DNA from: Prochlorococcus sp. AG-363-P01
GTDB lineage: Bacteria; Cyanobacteriota; Cyanobacteriia; PCC-6307; Cyanobiaceae
NCBI GenBank assembly: GCA_003278225.1
Contig: QCGC01000001.1
Span: forward strand, 124,001 to 188,000
Direction: 5' to 3'
Length of the DNA stretch: 64,000 bases
Shown here one piece after another: positions 4,344 through 46,921 of this stretch (positions are counted from its first letter, which is position 1; every line of letters starts with the position of its first letter). Position numbers and translations under genes: made by a program. The notes beneath the pieces are model-generated. The model ran no database searches and was not told the DNA's origin. It saw only the letters and a program-made list of their open reading frames with translations.

Positions 4344-4721
4344 ATGATGACGGACTACAAGGAACAATGGAATTGCATTTCCAATTGCGGTGCCTGTTGC
4401 CGTCTTGCCCCACTAGAACGTCTTGAAGCACTAGAGGCTCTAAGCCCTGCAGAAGAGGTTGAATACCTAAAAATGGTTGGTCAGGATGGCTGGTGCATTC
4501 ATTACGATAGTGGTTCTAGGAGCTGTAGGATTTATAAAGACAGGCCTGAATTCTGTAGGGTCTGCAATCTAAAAAGGTTTTTCGACTTAGCCAATGAAGA
4601 GCCCCAATCAATTGCAATCTCTTTTTGTCGCCAACATATAAGAGCCGTTTACGGAGGGAAGAGTAAAGAAATGAAAAAATTTCAAAAAGAACTACGTATA
4701 AAGAAAAAGAAACATGAATGA
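4344..4721 (+). CDS. YkgJ-family cysteine-cluster protein
   Basis: The 125-residue protein has the YkgJ (UPF0153) cysteine pattern: NCGACCRL near residue 15, then CIHYD, CRIY, PEFCRVC and FCRQH. These cysteines are thought to bind zinc or iron; some relatives are called Fe-S oxidoreductases, but the biochemical role is unproven. The C-terminus is lysine-rich (KELRIKKKKHE). Two ATGs are adjacent at 4344 and 4347. Its 3' end overlaps the next gene by 8 bases, suggesting translational coupling with the UPF0016 pair. Confidence 0.8.
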   Translation: MMTDYKEQWNCISNCGACCRLAPLERLEALEALSPAEEVEYLKMVGQDGWCIHYDSGSRSCRIYKDRPEFCRVCNLKRFFDLANEEPQSIAISFCRQHIRAVYGGKSKEMKKFQKELRIKKKKHE

Positions 4722-5070
4722 ACAACAAAAGCAATCAATTGAAGAGCAAAGCAGTAAAGGCCCTGATATAAAAGGCTTCCTAGCAGTATTTGTATCAACT
4801 TTTACGACTGTATTTATAGCTGAATTAGGTGACAAGACTCAAATTGCGACTTTGCTTCTTACAGCTCAATCAGGAATGCCCTTAATAGTTTTCATTGGTT
4901 CAGCATCTGCCTTAATCTGTTCTAGTTTGATGGGCGTCATCATTGGTACCTGGTTAGCCAAAAAGATTCCTGCTGAGAAACTCGAATACGCAGCTGGAAT
5001 GTTAATGGTTGGTATTGGCTTGTATATGAGCCTACAGGCATCACAAAATCTTCTTAATAATCTTGTCTGA
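4714..5070 (+). CDS. UPF0016/TMEM165-family half-size manganese exchanger, subunit 1
   Basis: The 118-residue protein has three predicted membrane helices and one copy of the family signature E-x-G-D-K-T (IAELGDKTQIATLLL) near residue 34. Full-length members (Mnx, GDT1, TMEM165) carry two such repeats. Here each repeat is on its own gene, like the cyanobacterial hemi-manganese exchangers Hmx1/Hmx2, which work as a hetero-oligomer to move Mn2+ across the thylakoid or plasma membrane. The second half follows after 6 bases. A soluble acidic/polar N-terminus precedes the first helix. Substrate is inferred from the family. Confidence 0.85.
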   Translation: MNEQQKQSIEEQSSKGPDIKGFLAVFVSTFTTVFIAELGDKTQIATLLLTAQSGMPLIVFIGSASALICSSLMGVIIGTWLAKKIPAEKLEYAAGMLMVGIGLYMSLQASQNLLNNLV

Positions 5071-5076
5071 TTTGAG

Positions 5077-5409
5077 ATGCTGTCACTTTTCATAGCGACT
5101 TTCACAACCGTTTTCCTGGCAGAACTTGGTGACAAAACACAATTAGCAACTGTTGCTATCAGTGGGACAAGCAAAAGGCCATTAGCTGTCTTCCTTGGCT
5201 CTTCAAGTGCTCTTGTTTTGGCTAGTTTATTAGGAGTAGTGGCAGGCACTTCAATAACATCTTTCATTCCAAACGATATGTTGAAAGCCTTAGCCGCAAT
5301 AGGTTTTATTTGGATTGGATCGAGATTACTATGGCCATTAACGCAAAGTAAAGATGATATTGTTGAGTCAAATAACAAAATAAAAGCAGATGCTGACAAC
5401 AATACCTAA
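5077..5409 (+). CDS. UPF0016/TMEM165-family half-size manganese exchanger, subunit 2
   Basis: The 110-residue protein is the second single-repeat member of the pair, with the signature LAELGDKTQLATVAI close to the N-terminus and three predicted helices. Residues around the signature are nearly identical to the upstream gene, so the pair looks like a split internal duplication that stayed adjacent. By family knowledge the two acidic motifs, one from each chain, would form the cation-binding site. The tail is charged (KSKDDIVESNNK-like) and probably cytoplasmic. Confidence 0.85.
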   Translation: MLSLFIATFTTVFLAELGDKTQLATVAISGTSKRPLAVFLGSSSALVLASLLGVVAGTSITSFIPNDMLKALAAIGFIWIGSRLLWPLTQSKDDIVESNNKIKADADNNT

Positions 5410-5495: not shown

Positions 5496-7850
5496 ATGAT
5501 TACGGTTTCTAATCTTCTTGACCATTTATCTCTGCATGAGACATTTGAAATTAAGAAAATTGAAAAGATACATAAAATTAGTAACAAGGCAGAGAGAAAG
5601 AAACTTGAAATAGCCTTAACAGCACTTTCAAGGCTAGGAATTATTGAAATCCATGAAAGTGGCCTGTTAAAGCTGAAAGAGGATCATTCGTTGATAAAAG
5701 CCCGGTTACGTTGTAGCTCCAAAGGATATTGTTTTGCTGTTAGAGATGACAAAAAAGGAGATGATATCTATGTAAGAGATAACTTCCTCAATCATGCTTG
5801 GAATGGTGATCGTGTTCTAGTCAAAATTACTAGAGAAGCTGTAAGAAGAAGATCCCCTGAAGGGAAAGTCCAATGTATATTAGAGCGATCATCATCGAAT
5901 ATTCCTTGCTTACTAGATATTGAAAATGATGATTTACTAGCTATCCCTCTCGATGACAGAATACTGACATCTATACAGTTAAATGAATCAGATAAACCTT
6001 ATTTTAGTGAAGAGAGGAAGCAAAATCTTTTTGAAGTAGAGATAGATCGTTTTCCAATCGCACAATACGACGCAATTGGACATATTGTTAGGCCCCTACC
6101 TCTAGATGCAGGAAATAAGGGCGATATAGATATTCTTTTAACCAAAAATAATCTTCATAAATGTATTCCATCTCCAAAGAGTGCAATCAAGAGCCCTGTA
6201 GAGAAAAATAGAAGGGACCTAACCAATCAAGAAACTTTAATATTTAGAAGTTGGAACTCTGAAGATGCTCCGCCATTACCAGCTATTCATGTAGTTCCCT
6301 TTGCCGGTGGAATGAGGTTATGGATACACTCACCATCTGTGGCCGAAAGAGTTGGGATAGGAAATAATTTAGATAACTGGTTACTAGAAAAAGGGCAAGC
6401 TCACTGTCTTGGAGATATGTGGAAACCACTATTAAACAAAAATCTTACAAAAGCCTGTGACTTTAAAGTTGGCTCTGCTAATAAGGCAATTAGTGTTCAA
6501 CTTGATATCAGCTCAGAAGGAGAAGTTATTGATTGGGAATTTTTCTTATCAGAAATACAACCAGTAGCGGAAGTTAATTGTGAGCACTTGACATCTATTG
6601 AAAATAGAAAACCAAAGTCACGAACAATACCTACCATATTAAAACCTCTTAAAGCTCAACTAGTTCAAATACAAAGTGCTATTTTCACCGCACAACTTCT
6701 GTTCAAAAGAGAGAAAGAAGAAGGCTTAATAGAATTAGATTTACCGACACCAGACATCAAAAACTTATCTGAATTGTCATGGCAAGAACCAGGAGATGAG
6801 TTTAATCAGTGGAAATTACCTTTAAACCAGACTGATCCACAGTCAATTCTATGCCCATTGTTAAGAGCGGCTAATAAAGCCTTTTATAGACATATACATC
6901 AGTTAAATATTCCGGGTCTACGAATTAAATCAGATTCCATTGATAAAAATACATTAAATGATGTAGTAAAGTCAGCACTGGCACTTGAACTTAAACTTGA
7001 ACTAGACGAGCAAGGTGTTACAACTGCCTCTCAATTAGCTGATTTATTTGCTAAAAATACTTCTAGAAGAGTTCTAGATAAACTATTAAGAAATTGCTTG
7101 CCAACCCCAAAATTAACTAGTTGTGAAAGTCAATCTAATTCAACACAAGAGGTAGAAATCAGTCCTAATGGTCAATTAGATCGCTCAGCACAAGCTCCTT
7201 GGACATGCCCTACCTTAAACTATTATGAAATAATTAATCAAAGAATAATAATTGCCTTATTAAGGGAAGGCAAATCAAGGCCATCAGCACGACACAAAGT
7301 CACAATAAATCTAGGCAAGAAAGACTGTTGTAAGGAAATAGATTGGCCTATATTTACACCAACAACACTTTTAAATTTAAATAAGCTTACTGAAGAAAGA
7401 TTAGTAACACGATTAAATTCTCAAAGAAGAATTGCAAAGTCATTACGGAATGGAATAGTTTCAATGGCTCTAGCACGAGCTATTGAACCACTCGTAGGTC
7501 AAGAAATGGAAGCAGTGATCAGTGGCGTTCAAAGTTATGGCTTTTTTGCAGAAATACTCCCCTTCATGGCAGAAGGACTTGTTCATGTAAGTTCTTTGAA
7601 TGATGATTGGTACGAGTACAGGTCACGTCAGAGCAGATTAATTGGTAGGAAAAGCAAAATGATATATCAACTGGGCGATATGCTAAAAGTTAAAATTATA
7701 AAAGTAGATATCCTCAAAAATCAGATAGATCTTGAGGTATTTGAGGAAAAAAATAGTAATGATGATACTAGCAAAGAAATAGAGCAACAAGATTCATTAA
7801 ATACATTTACTGAACTTGTTCCAGTGTCAATAGAAGAGACAAGTATATGA
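5496..7850 (+). CDS. RNase II/R (RNB) family protein with degenerate catalytic motifs
   Basis: The 784-residue protein has the RNase II/R layout: N-terminal cold-shock-like region (residues ~65-110), RNB core (~240-640) and C-terminal S1 domain (~670-755, GQEMEAVISGVQSYGFFAEI). The RNB entry RRDLTNQETLIFRSWNSEDA aligns with the active-site segment of E. coli RNase II, but of the four metal-binding Asp only the one in SED remains; the paired DD is PP. The later SPIRKY-D box reads CPTLNYYEI, losing the catalytic Arg. It therefore looks non-catalytic, perhaps an RNA-binding protein. It overlaps ubiX by 4 bases. Confidence 0.8.
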   Translation: MITVSNLLDHLSLHETFEIKKIEKIHKISNKAERKKLEIALTALSRLGIIEIHESGLLKLKEDHSLIKARLRCSSKGYCFAVRDDKKGDDIYVRDNFLNHAWNGDRVLVKITREAVRRRSPEGKVQCILERSSSNIPCLLDIENDDLLAIPLDDRILTSIQLNESDKPYFSEERKQNLFEVEIDRFPIAQYDAIGHIVRPLPLDAGNKGDIDILLTKNNLHKCIPSPKSAIKSPVEKNRRDLTNQETLIFRSWNSEDAPPLPAIHVVPFAGGMRLWIHSPSVAERVGIGNNLDNWLLEKGQAHCLGDMWKPLLNKNLTKACDFKVGSANKAISVQLDISSEGEVIDWEFFLSEIQPVAEVNCEHLTSIENRKPKSRTIPTILKPLKAQLVQIQSAIFTAQLLFKREKEEGLIELDLPTPDIKNLSELSWQEPGDEFNQWKLPLNQTDPQSILCPLLRAANKAFYRHIHQLNIPGLRIKSDSIDKNTLNDVVKSALALELKLELDEQGVTTASQLADLFAKNTSRRVLDKLLRNCLPTPKLTSCESQSNSTQEVEISPNGQLDRSAQAPWTCPTLNYYEIINQRIIIALLREGKSRPSARHKVTINLGKKDCCKEIDWPIFTPTTLLNLNKLTEERLVTRLNSQRRIAKSLRNGIVSMALARAIEPLVGQEMEAVISGVQSYGFFAEILPFMAEGLVHVSSLNDDWYEYRSRQSRLIGRKSKMIYQLGDMLKVKIIKVDILKNQIDLEVFEEKNSNDDTSKEIEQQDSLNTFTELVPVSIEETSI

Positions 7851-8452
7851 AAACATTTGTTTTAGCTGTTACTGGAGCTTCTGCTCAAATACTAGCTGAA
7901 CGCTCTATTGAAATACTCTTAAATAACAACTATAACCTACACCTTGTTTTAAGCCGTGGTGCTTACGAAGTATGGCTATCTGAAATAGGTGTCAAGATTC
8001 CTCTAGATCCTATAATCCAACGGAATTTCTGGATTGAGCGATTAAATATTAAAAATGGAACATTAATCTGTCACAAATGGAACGAGAATTCAGCCTGTAT
8101 TGCAAGTGGTAGTTTCAAAACTAATGGTATGGCAATAGTTCCCTGTAGTATGGGAACGTTGGGAAGAATAGCTGCAGGATTCTCGTTAAATTTAATCGAA
8201 AGATGTGCTGATGTACATTTAAAAGAAGGTCGCCCATTAATTATTGCTCCTAGAGAAACCCCACTTAGCTTGATACACTTAAGGAATATGACAACTTTAC
8301 TTGAGACTGGTGCAACTATATTCCCACCAATACCAGCTTGGTATACATCGCCAAAAAATATAGAAGAAATGGTTGATTTTTTAGTAATCAGACTTTTCGA
8401 CACTTTAGGAGAAGATCTAGCCCCTTTAAATCGCTGGGCTGGCCCTAAATAA
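7847..8452 (+). CDS. ubiX: Flavin prenyltransferase UbiX
   Basis: The 201-residue protein begins with the flavoprotein fold TFVLAVTGASAQILAER and contains VPCSMGTLGRIAAGFS and APRETPLSLIHLRNM, the conserved UbiX/Pad1 sites for FMN, the prenyl phosphate and the Arg-Glu catalytic pair. UbiX makes prenylated FMN, the cofactor of UbiD-type decarboxylases used in prenylquinone synthesis. The start overlaps the preceding stop (ATGA), and the next gene starts at its own stop (TAATG), so the three are translationally coupled. Confidence 0.93.
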   Translation: MKTFVLAVTGASAQILAERSIEILLNNNYNLHLVLSRGAYEVWLSEIGVKIPLDPIIQRNFWIERLNIKNGTLICHKWNENSACIASGSFKTNGMAIVPCSMGTLGRIAAGFSLNLIERCADVHLKEGRPLIIAPRETPLSLIHLRNMTTLLETGATIFPPIPAWYTSPKNIEEMVDFLVIRLFDTLGEDLAPLNRWAGPK

Positions 8453-9021
8453 TGACTTCATATAAGAAGGCCCTATTAATAATAGGCTCCCTACCAATAC
8501 TAACAGTCACTTTCATTTCCATAATGAATGTTAATAAAACAACCAAATTAAAATTACTAACATATACCTCAGCACCTATCAATCTAGGTGTACTGATGCT
8601 TGTAAGTAGTAGTGGCTCTGCATTGCTTACCAATATTTTATTGAAGAAAAGTAATCAAACAGACCAAACCATAAGAAGAGAAGTACATTTTAGCCCTAAC
8701 CAGCCTGATTTACTCAAAGATGAATTAGAGCTTGAAGAACTTGATATTAATCAAAATGATTATAATGCTAATGAATTTAATCAGATCTTGGCAAAAAGAG
8801 ATCCGAGGGATCCAACTCCTACAATTTCTGTTCCTTATAGAATTATAGAGGTGCCAACTAGTATTTATAACAATCATGAAGATATCTTAGAAGAGGATAT
8901 CATAGAAGAGCAAATTTTTGATGATAAGAATATCTCTCGTAAAGAATCAGAAACTATAAATGACTTAAATAAAAATTATGAAAAGGATGGTTGGGGCATT
9001 GAATATGGAGAAAACTGGTAA
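8452..9021 (+). CDS. Conserved membrane-anchored hypothetical protein
   Basis: The 189-residue protein has two N-terminal hydrophobic segments (residues ~7-25 and ~38-62, the second rich in Ser/Gly) followed by a long acidic soluble tail with clusters such as LEEDIIEEQIF. I do not recognise a catalytic domain. Its ATG overlaps the ubiX stop, suggesting co-translation, but this says little about function. Composition matches its neighbours, so recent transfer is unlikely. Confidence 0.65.
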   Translation: MTSYKKALLIIGSLPILTVTFISIMNVNKTTKLKLLTYTSAPINLGVLMLVSSSGSALLTNILLKKSNQTDQTIRREVHFSPNQPDLLKDELELEELDINQNDYNANEFNQILAKRDPRDPTPTISVPYRIIEVPTSIYNNHEDILEEDIIEEQIFDDKNISRKESETINDLNKNYEKDGWGIEYGENW

Positions 9022-45865: not shown

Positions 45866-46921
45866 GTGCAGACCTACGGGAACCCCAACGTTACCTACGC
45901 GTGGTACGCGGGTAACACTGGAGTTACAAACCGCTCAGGCCGATTTATTGCCTCGCACATTGGTCATACAGGATTGATTTGCTTTGGAGCTGGTGCAAAC
46001 ACTCTTTTTGAACTAGCCCGCTACAACCCAGGTTTACCAATGGGTGAGCAGGGGATGGTGATGCTTCCCCATCTCGCAACATATGGTTTAGGTGGATGCG
46101 AAAACGGTGTACTTACTGATCCATACCAGATCACTGTAGTAGCAGTTTTCCATCTTATTTTCTCTGCCGTATATGCAGGTGGAGCAATGCTTCATTCCTT
46201 CAGATATAAGGAAAAGCTTGAAGATTATCCAGCAGGTTCAAGACCTAATAAGTTTGCTTTTGATTGGACAGATCCAAACAGGCTTACTTCAATTCTTGGA
46301 CATCATTTGTGCTTCCTTGCACTTGGCAACGTTCAATTTGTTGAATGGGCTAAGTACAACGGAATATACGATCCAGCTATCGGGGCTGTTCGTACAGTTG
46401 ACTACAACCTTGATCTAGGAGCTATCTGGAACCATCAGATTGATTGGCTTTCAATTAGCAGCCTTGAAGACATCATGGGTGGTCATGCATTCTTAGCCTT
46501 CTTTATGGCAGCTGGTGCAGCTTTCCATATATTCACCAGTAACTTTGGCGAATATACAGAGTTCAAGGGCAAAGGATTGCTTGGTGCTGAATGGGTACTT
46601 TCCACCTCTCTTGCAGGTGCTGCCTATACAGCTTTCGTTGCAGCCTTCTGGGTTTCAACCAATACCACCATCTATCCAACTGAGCTTTACGGACAAACTC
46701 TTGATCTGAAACTTCAGATTGCTCCTTACTTCCTGGACACTAAACTTCTGGCAGATGGAACCAACACTGGTCGTGCTTGGTTGGCTAACTTCCACTACTA
46801 CGTTGGATTCTTCTATCTACAAGGTCATCTGTGGCATGGTTTAAGGGCTATGGGCTTTGACTTCAGGCGTATTGGCAAGTTGTTTGACACCTTGGAGACA
46901 AACCAAATCTCTGCAGGCTAA
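45866..46921 (+). CDS. Pcb-type chlorophyll a/b-binding antenna protein
   Basis: Pcb proteins are six-helix relatives of CP43/IsiA that form the main Prochlorococcus light-harvesting antenna; some are induced by iron shortage and ring photosystem I. The 351-residue protein starts MQTYGNPNVTYAWYAG, the family start, here with GTG at 45866. Chlorophyll-ligand His lie in ASHIGHTGL, HLATYGLGG, GHHLCFLALGN, GGHAFLAFF and QGHLWHGLRAMGFDF. Length lacks the large CP43 lumenal loop. Between two ferritin genes and near flavodoxin, it is probably the iron-stress (IsiA-like) member. A terminator follows. Confidence 0.95.
   Translation: MQTYGNPNVTYAWYAGNTGVTNRSGRFIASHIGHTGLICFGAGANTLFELARYNPGLPMGEQGMVMLPHLATYGLGGCENGVLTDPYQITVVAVFHLIFSAVYAGGAMLHSFRYKEKLEDYPAGSRPNKFAFDWTDPNRLTSILGHHLCFLALGNVQFVEWAKYNGIYDPAIGAVRTVDYNLDLGAIWNHQIDWLSISSLEDIMGGHAFLAFFMAAGAAFHIFTSNFGEYTEFKGKGLLGAEWVLSTSLAGAAYTAFVAAFWVSTNTTIYPTELYGQTLDLKLQIAPYFLDTKLLADGTNTGRAWLANFHYYVGFFYLQGHLWHGLRAMGFDFRRIGKLFDTLETNQISAG

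Follow-up and report, generated by a model that had tools for sequence, protein, structure and literature searches.

A zam ortholog of Prochlorococcus encodes an RNase R-like protein with a degenerate, probably inactive RNB domain

In RNase II of E. coli, the residues D201, D207, D209, D210 and R500 are catalytic. Across the cyanobacteria, a clade of the RNase II/R family called Zam carries a degenerate version of this site, and according to Thomas et al. (2022, PMC9145284) Zam is an RNB protein that is inactive and controlled by two cysteines, C73 and C79, in CSD1. In PCC 7002 both cysteines are required in vivo, their mutants phenocopying a zam deletion, and the purified protein, which aggregated, showed neither detectable nuclease activity nor detectable RNA binding (PMC9145284). 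In cyanobacteria other than the one treated here, deletion of zam alters pigments and drug resistance, and the function of the protein is redox-dependent (PMC9145284). An RNase II of Anabaena, which Thomas et al. equate with Zam (PMC9145284), is reported to bind RNase E and to increase its activity (also PMC10989914), the contact being with the catalytic domain of RNase E (PMC10783494). The word Prochlorococcus is absent from the main text of PMC9145284, and no paper on Zam in Prochlorococcus was seen in the literature searched, which covered few subscription journals. The Zam family is thus already known, and the gene described here is a further member of it.

The gene occupies positions 5496..7850 on the + strand of the window, i.e., the whole 64,000-nucleotide stretch of DNA that was analyzed. 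The ORF has exactly these limits, begins with ATG and is open for 784 codons; it is assigned as zam, encoding an RNase R-like, catalytically degenerate protein of 784 aa, on the basis of the ORF, Pfam, C73/C79, the tree and gene order. The first-pass annotation had proposed that the domain order and the S1 domain are retained, and this is borne out by Pfam, which finds OB_RNB, CSD2, RNB and S1. The OB_RNB domain, corresponding to CSD1, spans aa 70-126 (5703..5873, +) and is overlapped by the CSD2 match at aa 84-130; the degenerate RNB domain spans aa 239-590 (6210..7265, +), with 139 bits against a cut-off of 29.3; and the S1 RNA-binding domain, which together with CSD1 is the best-conserved part of the protein, spans aa 666-748 (7491..7739, +). 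Together, Pfam and the predicted structure give this protein the domain architecture that typifies the RNase II/R family, CSD1-CSD2-RNB-S1. Its score against the NCBIfam TIGR02063 RNase_R model (189.9 bits) does not reach the equivalog cut-off of 597.85 bits.

An AlphaFold2 model of the window Zam (pLDDT 81.8, pTM 0.78), for which 15 sequences from the window and the loci were used, was compared with known structures. The best match is RNase R 8cdu (Z 35.5, 613 residues, rmsd 5.0), followed by Mycoplasma RNase R 7dcy (Z 35.2), RNase II 2ix1 (Z 33.3, 593 residues, rmsd 6.5) and the fungal pseudonuclease Ssd1 7am1 (Z 29.0, 595 residues, rmsd 5.4), so that the RNase R fold is predicted to be retained. 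Because 8cdu is a 30S-bound RNase R, and because it again ranks first in a sequence search with the window Zam, the protein might be thought to act at the ribosome, as an inactive RNase R that binds the 30S subunit and, instead of degrading it, blocks or marks it. However, the Z score of 8cdu lies within 1 of that of the Mycoplasma enzyme; given this tie, the 8cdu match speaks for an RNase R fold and for nothing beyond it, and a ribosomal role is improbable.

The loss of the active site was assessed in a MAFFT L-INS-i alignment that took E. coli RNase II and RNase R as yardsticks and contained, beside the window Zam and the other RNB protein of the same genome, 83 Zam, 30 Rnb and 9 other RNB proteins. 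In this alignment, D201, D207, D209, D210, R500 and D504 of E. coli RNase II correspond to R, P, L, P, L and E. The first four fall in the former metal-binding motif I (aa 251-262; 6246..6281, +), where they are replaced by R251, P259, L261 and P262; the last two fall in the former SPxRRYxD box (aa 568-582, PWTCPTLNYYEIINQ; 7197..7241, +), where R500 has become Leu and D504 Glu. The residue set of active RNase R and RNase II, consisting of four acidic metal ligands plus R500, is absent from the protein. The initial reading had counted three of the four Asp residues, together with the Arg, as replaced; the loss of the site and of the Arg stands, but the count has to be raised to four of four. 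The discrepancy stems from differing gap placement around 'SED', whose Asp (D257) can slide onto D207 by shifting one gap. D257 as a surviving D207 is ruled out by the family pattern, since Asp stands there in 40/117 distinct picocyanobacterial Zams and the Pro that aligns with D207 is retained in 115/117. None of the 43 same-family Zams has Asp at any of the four metal positions, which, together with purifying selection on the frame, rules out chance or sequencing error. The conserved acids of the window RNB domain include E284, D337, E426, D483, D489 and a few others, and a scan of conserved acidic columns across the domain placed none of them within motif I or motif IV. The conserved acids D241 and D293 are shared with E. 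coli RNase II at the aligned columns and do not belong to its four metal-binding Asp residues.

Zams from outside the picocyanobacteria suggest how this state may have arisen. Among 40 such proteins, taken mostly from top-30 lists by RNB score with extra genomes chosen partly for lower scores, and thus a sample that leans to better-preserved RNB domains, an Asp or Glu is found at D209 in 38/40 and at D504 in 40/40, while R500 is retained in 27/40, D210 in 9/40 and D201 in 5/40. The D207 position is Asp in 0/83 Zams, with Glu in two of the 40 from outside the picocyanobacteria, and R500 is left in a single one of the 43 picocyanobacterial proteins. The stem leading to the picocyanobacterial Zams is long, at 1.39 changes per column. 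The loss of the site therefore looks stepwise, with D207 lost early and full erosion following on the picocyanobacterial stem, as we infer from the residue patterns. One non-picocyanobacterial Zam (L006) has D201, D209, D210, R500 and D504 and is missing D207 alone, making it a possible near-active intermediate.

These partly preserved sites bear on whether the window Zam might keep some residual RNase activity through other residues. According to a review (PMC10989914), Anabaena Alr1240, which is listed beside sll1910 and is probably a Zam, degrades unstructured RNA like RNase II. If Alr1240 is indeed a Zam, its activity conflicts with the view that all Zams are dead, and some partly eroded Zams, such as those with an acid at D209 and an intact R500, may be active. 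The Alr1240 case would nonetheless not rescue activity in the window Zam, whose site is fully replaced: all four Asp residues and R500 are gone, no new conserved acid has appeared at motif I, and the few conserved RNB acids (e.g., E284 and D337) fall outside motifs I and IV by sequence. Residual RNase activity is thus very improbable, and the window Zam very probably lacks exonuclease activity. It is predicted to keep the RNase R fold and to have given up RNA hydrolysis. The suggestion made from the sequence at the outset, that the protein is a pseudoenzyme with RNA-binding or scaffold domains, is still the best reading; it matches the published view of Zam (PMC9145284) and the conservation of CSD1 and S1 but not of RNB.

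At the outset Zam had been listed as a protein with which to compare the gene; the gene is itself a zam, almost certainly the picocyanobacterial ortholog. It has a degenerate RNB site, two CSD1 cysteines, a place in the Zam clade and a second RNB gene in its genome. The codons of the redox cysteine pair lie at 5712..5732 (+), within the L12 loop of CSD1, and the role of the pair was described in PCC 7002 (PMC9145284): C73 at 5712-5714 and C79 at 5730-5732, exactly the positions 73 and 79 of PCC 7002 numbering. Among distinct picocyanobacterial Zams C73 is found in 115/117 and C79 in 116/117, and among other cyanobacterial Zams in 40/40 and 39/40, respectively. The Rnb proteins have Cys in the first of these columns in 1/30 rows and in the second in 9/30, so C79 by itself is not diagnostic of Zam. 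A quick maximum-likelihood tree with 52 rows, computed with no bootstrap and containing no PCC 7002 or PCC 6803 reference Zam, joins the Zams in one clade (29 rows, SH-aLRT 100) and Rnb in a separate one (14 rows, SH-aLRT 99); it puts the two E. coli enzymes, RNase R and RNase II, on the Zam side, a position with weak resolution and long branches. Two extra RNB proteins, a 628-aa frame (L058, genome G131) and an 884-aa frame (L049, genome G236), fall outside both clades. The closest named relatives of the window Zam are in Prochlorococcus single-cell genomes, at 63% identity.

Gene order around zam is also conserved. A ubiX-like flavoprotein gene (PF02441; 7847..8452, +) overlaps the zam stop by ATGA and is linked to zam across cyanobacteria, lying downstream of it at 40/43 same-family, 78/80 named and 26/40 other Zam loci. 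A GDT1 gene lies upstream at 42/43 same-family and 77/80 named loci; in these neighbor counts short loci were scored as misses, and the same-family and named sets overlap in part. In the window, gene order and Pfam identify two half-size genes for GDT1 cation transporters side by side (4714-5070 and 5077-5409, together 4714..5409, +), and nearly all of the picocyanobacteria examined have such a pair directly upstream of zam. The ORF after ubiX (8452-9021) has no Pfam match and is found downstream of zam-ubiX in many relatives. Promoter-like sites near zam number 18 versus 17.5 expected, and terminator-like sites 7 versus 3.4 expected.

The pattern of sequence conservation indicates which parts of the protein are under selection. 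Mean pairwise identity among 124 picocyanobacterial Zams is 0.78 for CSD1, 0.72 for S1 and 0.43 for RNB, and in 37/37 independent pairs omega is lower in CSD1 plus S1 than in RNB (medians 0.036 vs 0.162). The largest RNB omega among these pairs is 0.447, and whole-gene omega ranges from 0.08 to 0.354, a pattern showing that constraint acts on the whole of zam and is strongest in the OB domains. In 21 matched genomes, S1 identity is higher for Zam than for Rnb in 210/210 pairs; RNB-domain identity is higher for Rnb in 146/210 (means 0.418 vs 0.387), so overall RNB identity separates the two proteins weakly, whereas active-site residues and S1 separate them clearly. The fast evolution of the RNB domain and the long picocyanobacterial stem might be taken as signs that the gene is decaying into a pseudogene and is about to be lost from a streamlined genome. 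CSD1 and S1, however, are nearly frozen, and at the sequence level a pseudogene is ruled out by the open 784-codon frame, an omega well below 1 and the conserved gene order, leaving this reading with a negligible probability.

The bulk of RNB-type catalysis appears to reside elsewhere. It had been asked whether another complete RNB gene exists in the genome; the answer is a gene with an RNB domain and its core residues, but not the N-terminal cold-shock domains. This own Rnb (G000:C1:112745-113596; frame L001:1420-2694), about 17 kb upstream of zam, is a 424-aa protein with D/E/D/D at the metal positions and R500 present, in which Pfam detects the RNB domain and no cold-shock domain. Among the Rnb proteins aligned, D201, D209, D210 and R500 are present in 30/30, and the D207 position is Glu (25) or Asp (5). 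A scan of 61 family genomes gave 45 with an Rnb match, in which the frame is at most 466 aa in 22 (two short frames may be cut), 676-737 aa in another 22, and split between contigs in one. At 16 short Rnb loci the distance from the rpsR end to the start of the open frame is -47 to 143 bases, and searches with full-length Rnb give no match there before query residue 248, which argues for loss of the cold-shock domains in the Prochlorococcus-like Rnb. The genomes concerned have a GC content of 0.28-0.40 in 15/16, the exception being G297 at 0.62. In low-GC, Prochlorococcus-like genomes the catalytic Rnb has thus lost its N-terminal RNA-binding domains, and the loss in G297 is apparently a separate event. 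Besides L001, short Rnb frames of about 400-450 aa that start right after rpsR are seen at L112-L122, L033-L035 and L038, against about 680-730 aa in larger relatives. The G297 genome (L109, L120) combines its high GC content with a 466-aa Rnb frame and a very divergent Zam that has Ser in place of C73. A coupling of Zam site loss to Rnb cold-shock domain loss is unsupported, as G175, G181 and G311 have a full-length Rnb and equally degenerate Zams. No paper on a shortened Prochlorococcus RNase II was seen in the literature searched, which included few subscription journals.

Taken together, these observations are compatible with a reading, somewhat favored on balance when taken as a whole chain, in which Zam regulates RNA decay non-catalytically and under redox gating, working through its OB domains, with RNase E as a likely partner. 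The working parts would be the CSD1 and S1 OB domains, with C73 and C79 positioned in the RNA-contacting L12 loop of CSD1, and the redox state of this pair would gate the protein. Zam would then modulate RNA decay with no catalysis of its own, probably in partnership with RNase E, and the separate rnb gene would supply the RNB enzyme for bulk hydrolysis in the 3'-5' direction. The parts of this reading differ in strength. That Zam acts through its OB domains is likely; that RNase E is its main partner is an evenly balanced proposition. RNase E is present in 11/12 related genomes examined, including all 11/11 near-complete relatives. A search of the window's own genome, which is 64.7% complete, did not find it, an absence read as incompleteness given its presence in every near-complete relative.

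The main rival to an RNase E-linked modulator is an RNA binder like fungal Ssd1, in which Zam would bind specific transcripts on the outer CSD surface and affect their translation or stability independently of RNase E, a blocked RNase funnel being irrelevant. The evolutionary pattern of fungal Ssd1 is the same, with CSDs conserved and the active site lost (PMC8097288, PMC8934651), and both the structural match to 7am1 and the gap in identity between CSD1 and RNB fit this idea. Against it, S1 is conserved nearly to the level of CSD1, unlike what a mechanism using the CSDs alone would entail, and the one reported partner of a Zam is RNase E. We know of no RNA motif or bound transcript for Zam, which also counts against it. 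An Ssd1-like mechanism is therefore unlikely, if the most serious competitor to modulation of RNase E.

The RNB domain of the picocyanobacterial Zams seems to have undergone more than erosion. Among 117 distinct picocyanobacterial proteins, 30/352 RNB columns are invariant (at least 95%), and in 17/30 of these the residue is specific to picocyanobacteria, being found in no more than 10% of the 40 Zams from outside this group; the lineage-specific share of invariant columns is 2/29 in CSD1 and 1/38 in S1. In a matched control of 21 family genomes plus 9 other genomes, Rnb has 42 invariant RNB columns, of which one is new, whereas Zam has 23, of which 12 are new. The new invariant residues at the old motifs include W253, P259, P568 and N581. 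In addition, a third cysteine beside CSD1, C127 (codon 5874..5876, +), is Cys in 117/117 distinct picocyanobacterial Zams vs 0/40 others, and C304, at the position of E. coli Y253, is Cys in 106/117. Shared ancestry on a long stem can explain the difference from other Zams; what it leaves over is invariance amid an RNB identity of 0.43. The alignments thus suggest a domain rebuilt with new conserved residues. A more speculative and rather unlikely extension is that the dead pocket of marine picocyanobacterial Zams has been rebuilt into a new binding site (W253, P259, E284, R285, W309, K386, P568, N581 and C127) that senses or binds a new partner, and that in Prochlorococcus the work is split, Zam providing RNA binding via its OB domains and the CSD-less RNase II catalysis, such that the two may cooperate. 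The literature searched, which includes few subscription journals, yielded no account of the complete site loss, the new invariant residues, C127 or the CSD-less Rnb.

If these readings are correct, one of the two Prochlorococcus RNB proteins, easily annotated as an RNase, is none, and RNA-decay models for Prochlorococcus should then count one RNB exonuclease. The stepwise loss, with its intermediates outside the picocyanobacteria, offers a natural series for asking when an RNase turns into a regulator and parallels fungal Ssd1, and the lineage-specific invariant residues are testable sites for a new function. Prochlorococcus has no phycobilisomes, and the retention of zam there argues that the core role of Zam is other than phycobilisome synthesis. 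A PSII/CP43-type antenna gene (PF00421) lies in the window at 45866-46921, as would be expected for Prochlorococcus, and its product is presumably a Pcb-like antenna protein; since the published Zam phenotype concerns phycocyanin, that readout may not transfer.

Among known systems, the window Zam is closest to the Zam (resistance to acetazolamide) of Synechococcus PCC 7002 and Synechocystis PCC 6803 (sll1910), with which it has in common its architecture, a degenerate site, cysteines 73 and 79 and a separate Rnb. The picocyanobacterial form differs from the PCC 7002/6803 type in that the whole site is lost, 17 invariant RNB columns are lineage-specific and an extra invariant cysteine, C127, is present. 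With E. coli RNase R and RNase II (Rnr and Rnb) it shares fold and domain order, but their catalytic Asp tetrad and R500 are both missing from it; the non-picocyanobacterial Zams score better with RNase R than with RNase II. Fungal Ssd1 is an independent case in the RNase II family in which, as in the window Zam, the CSDs are conserved and catalysis has been lost (PMC8097288, PMC8934651). Unlike Zam, however, Ssd1 is derived from Dis3L2 and has fixed elements that block its funnel, and the descriptions of Ssd1 in the texts consulted contain no cysteine switch.
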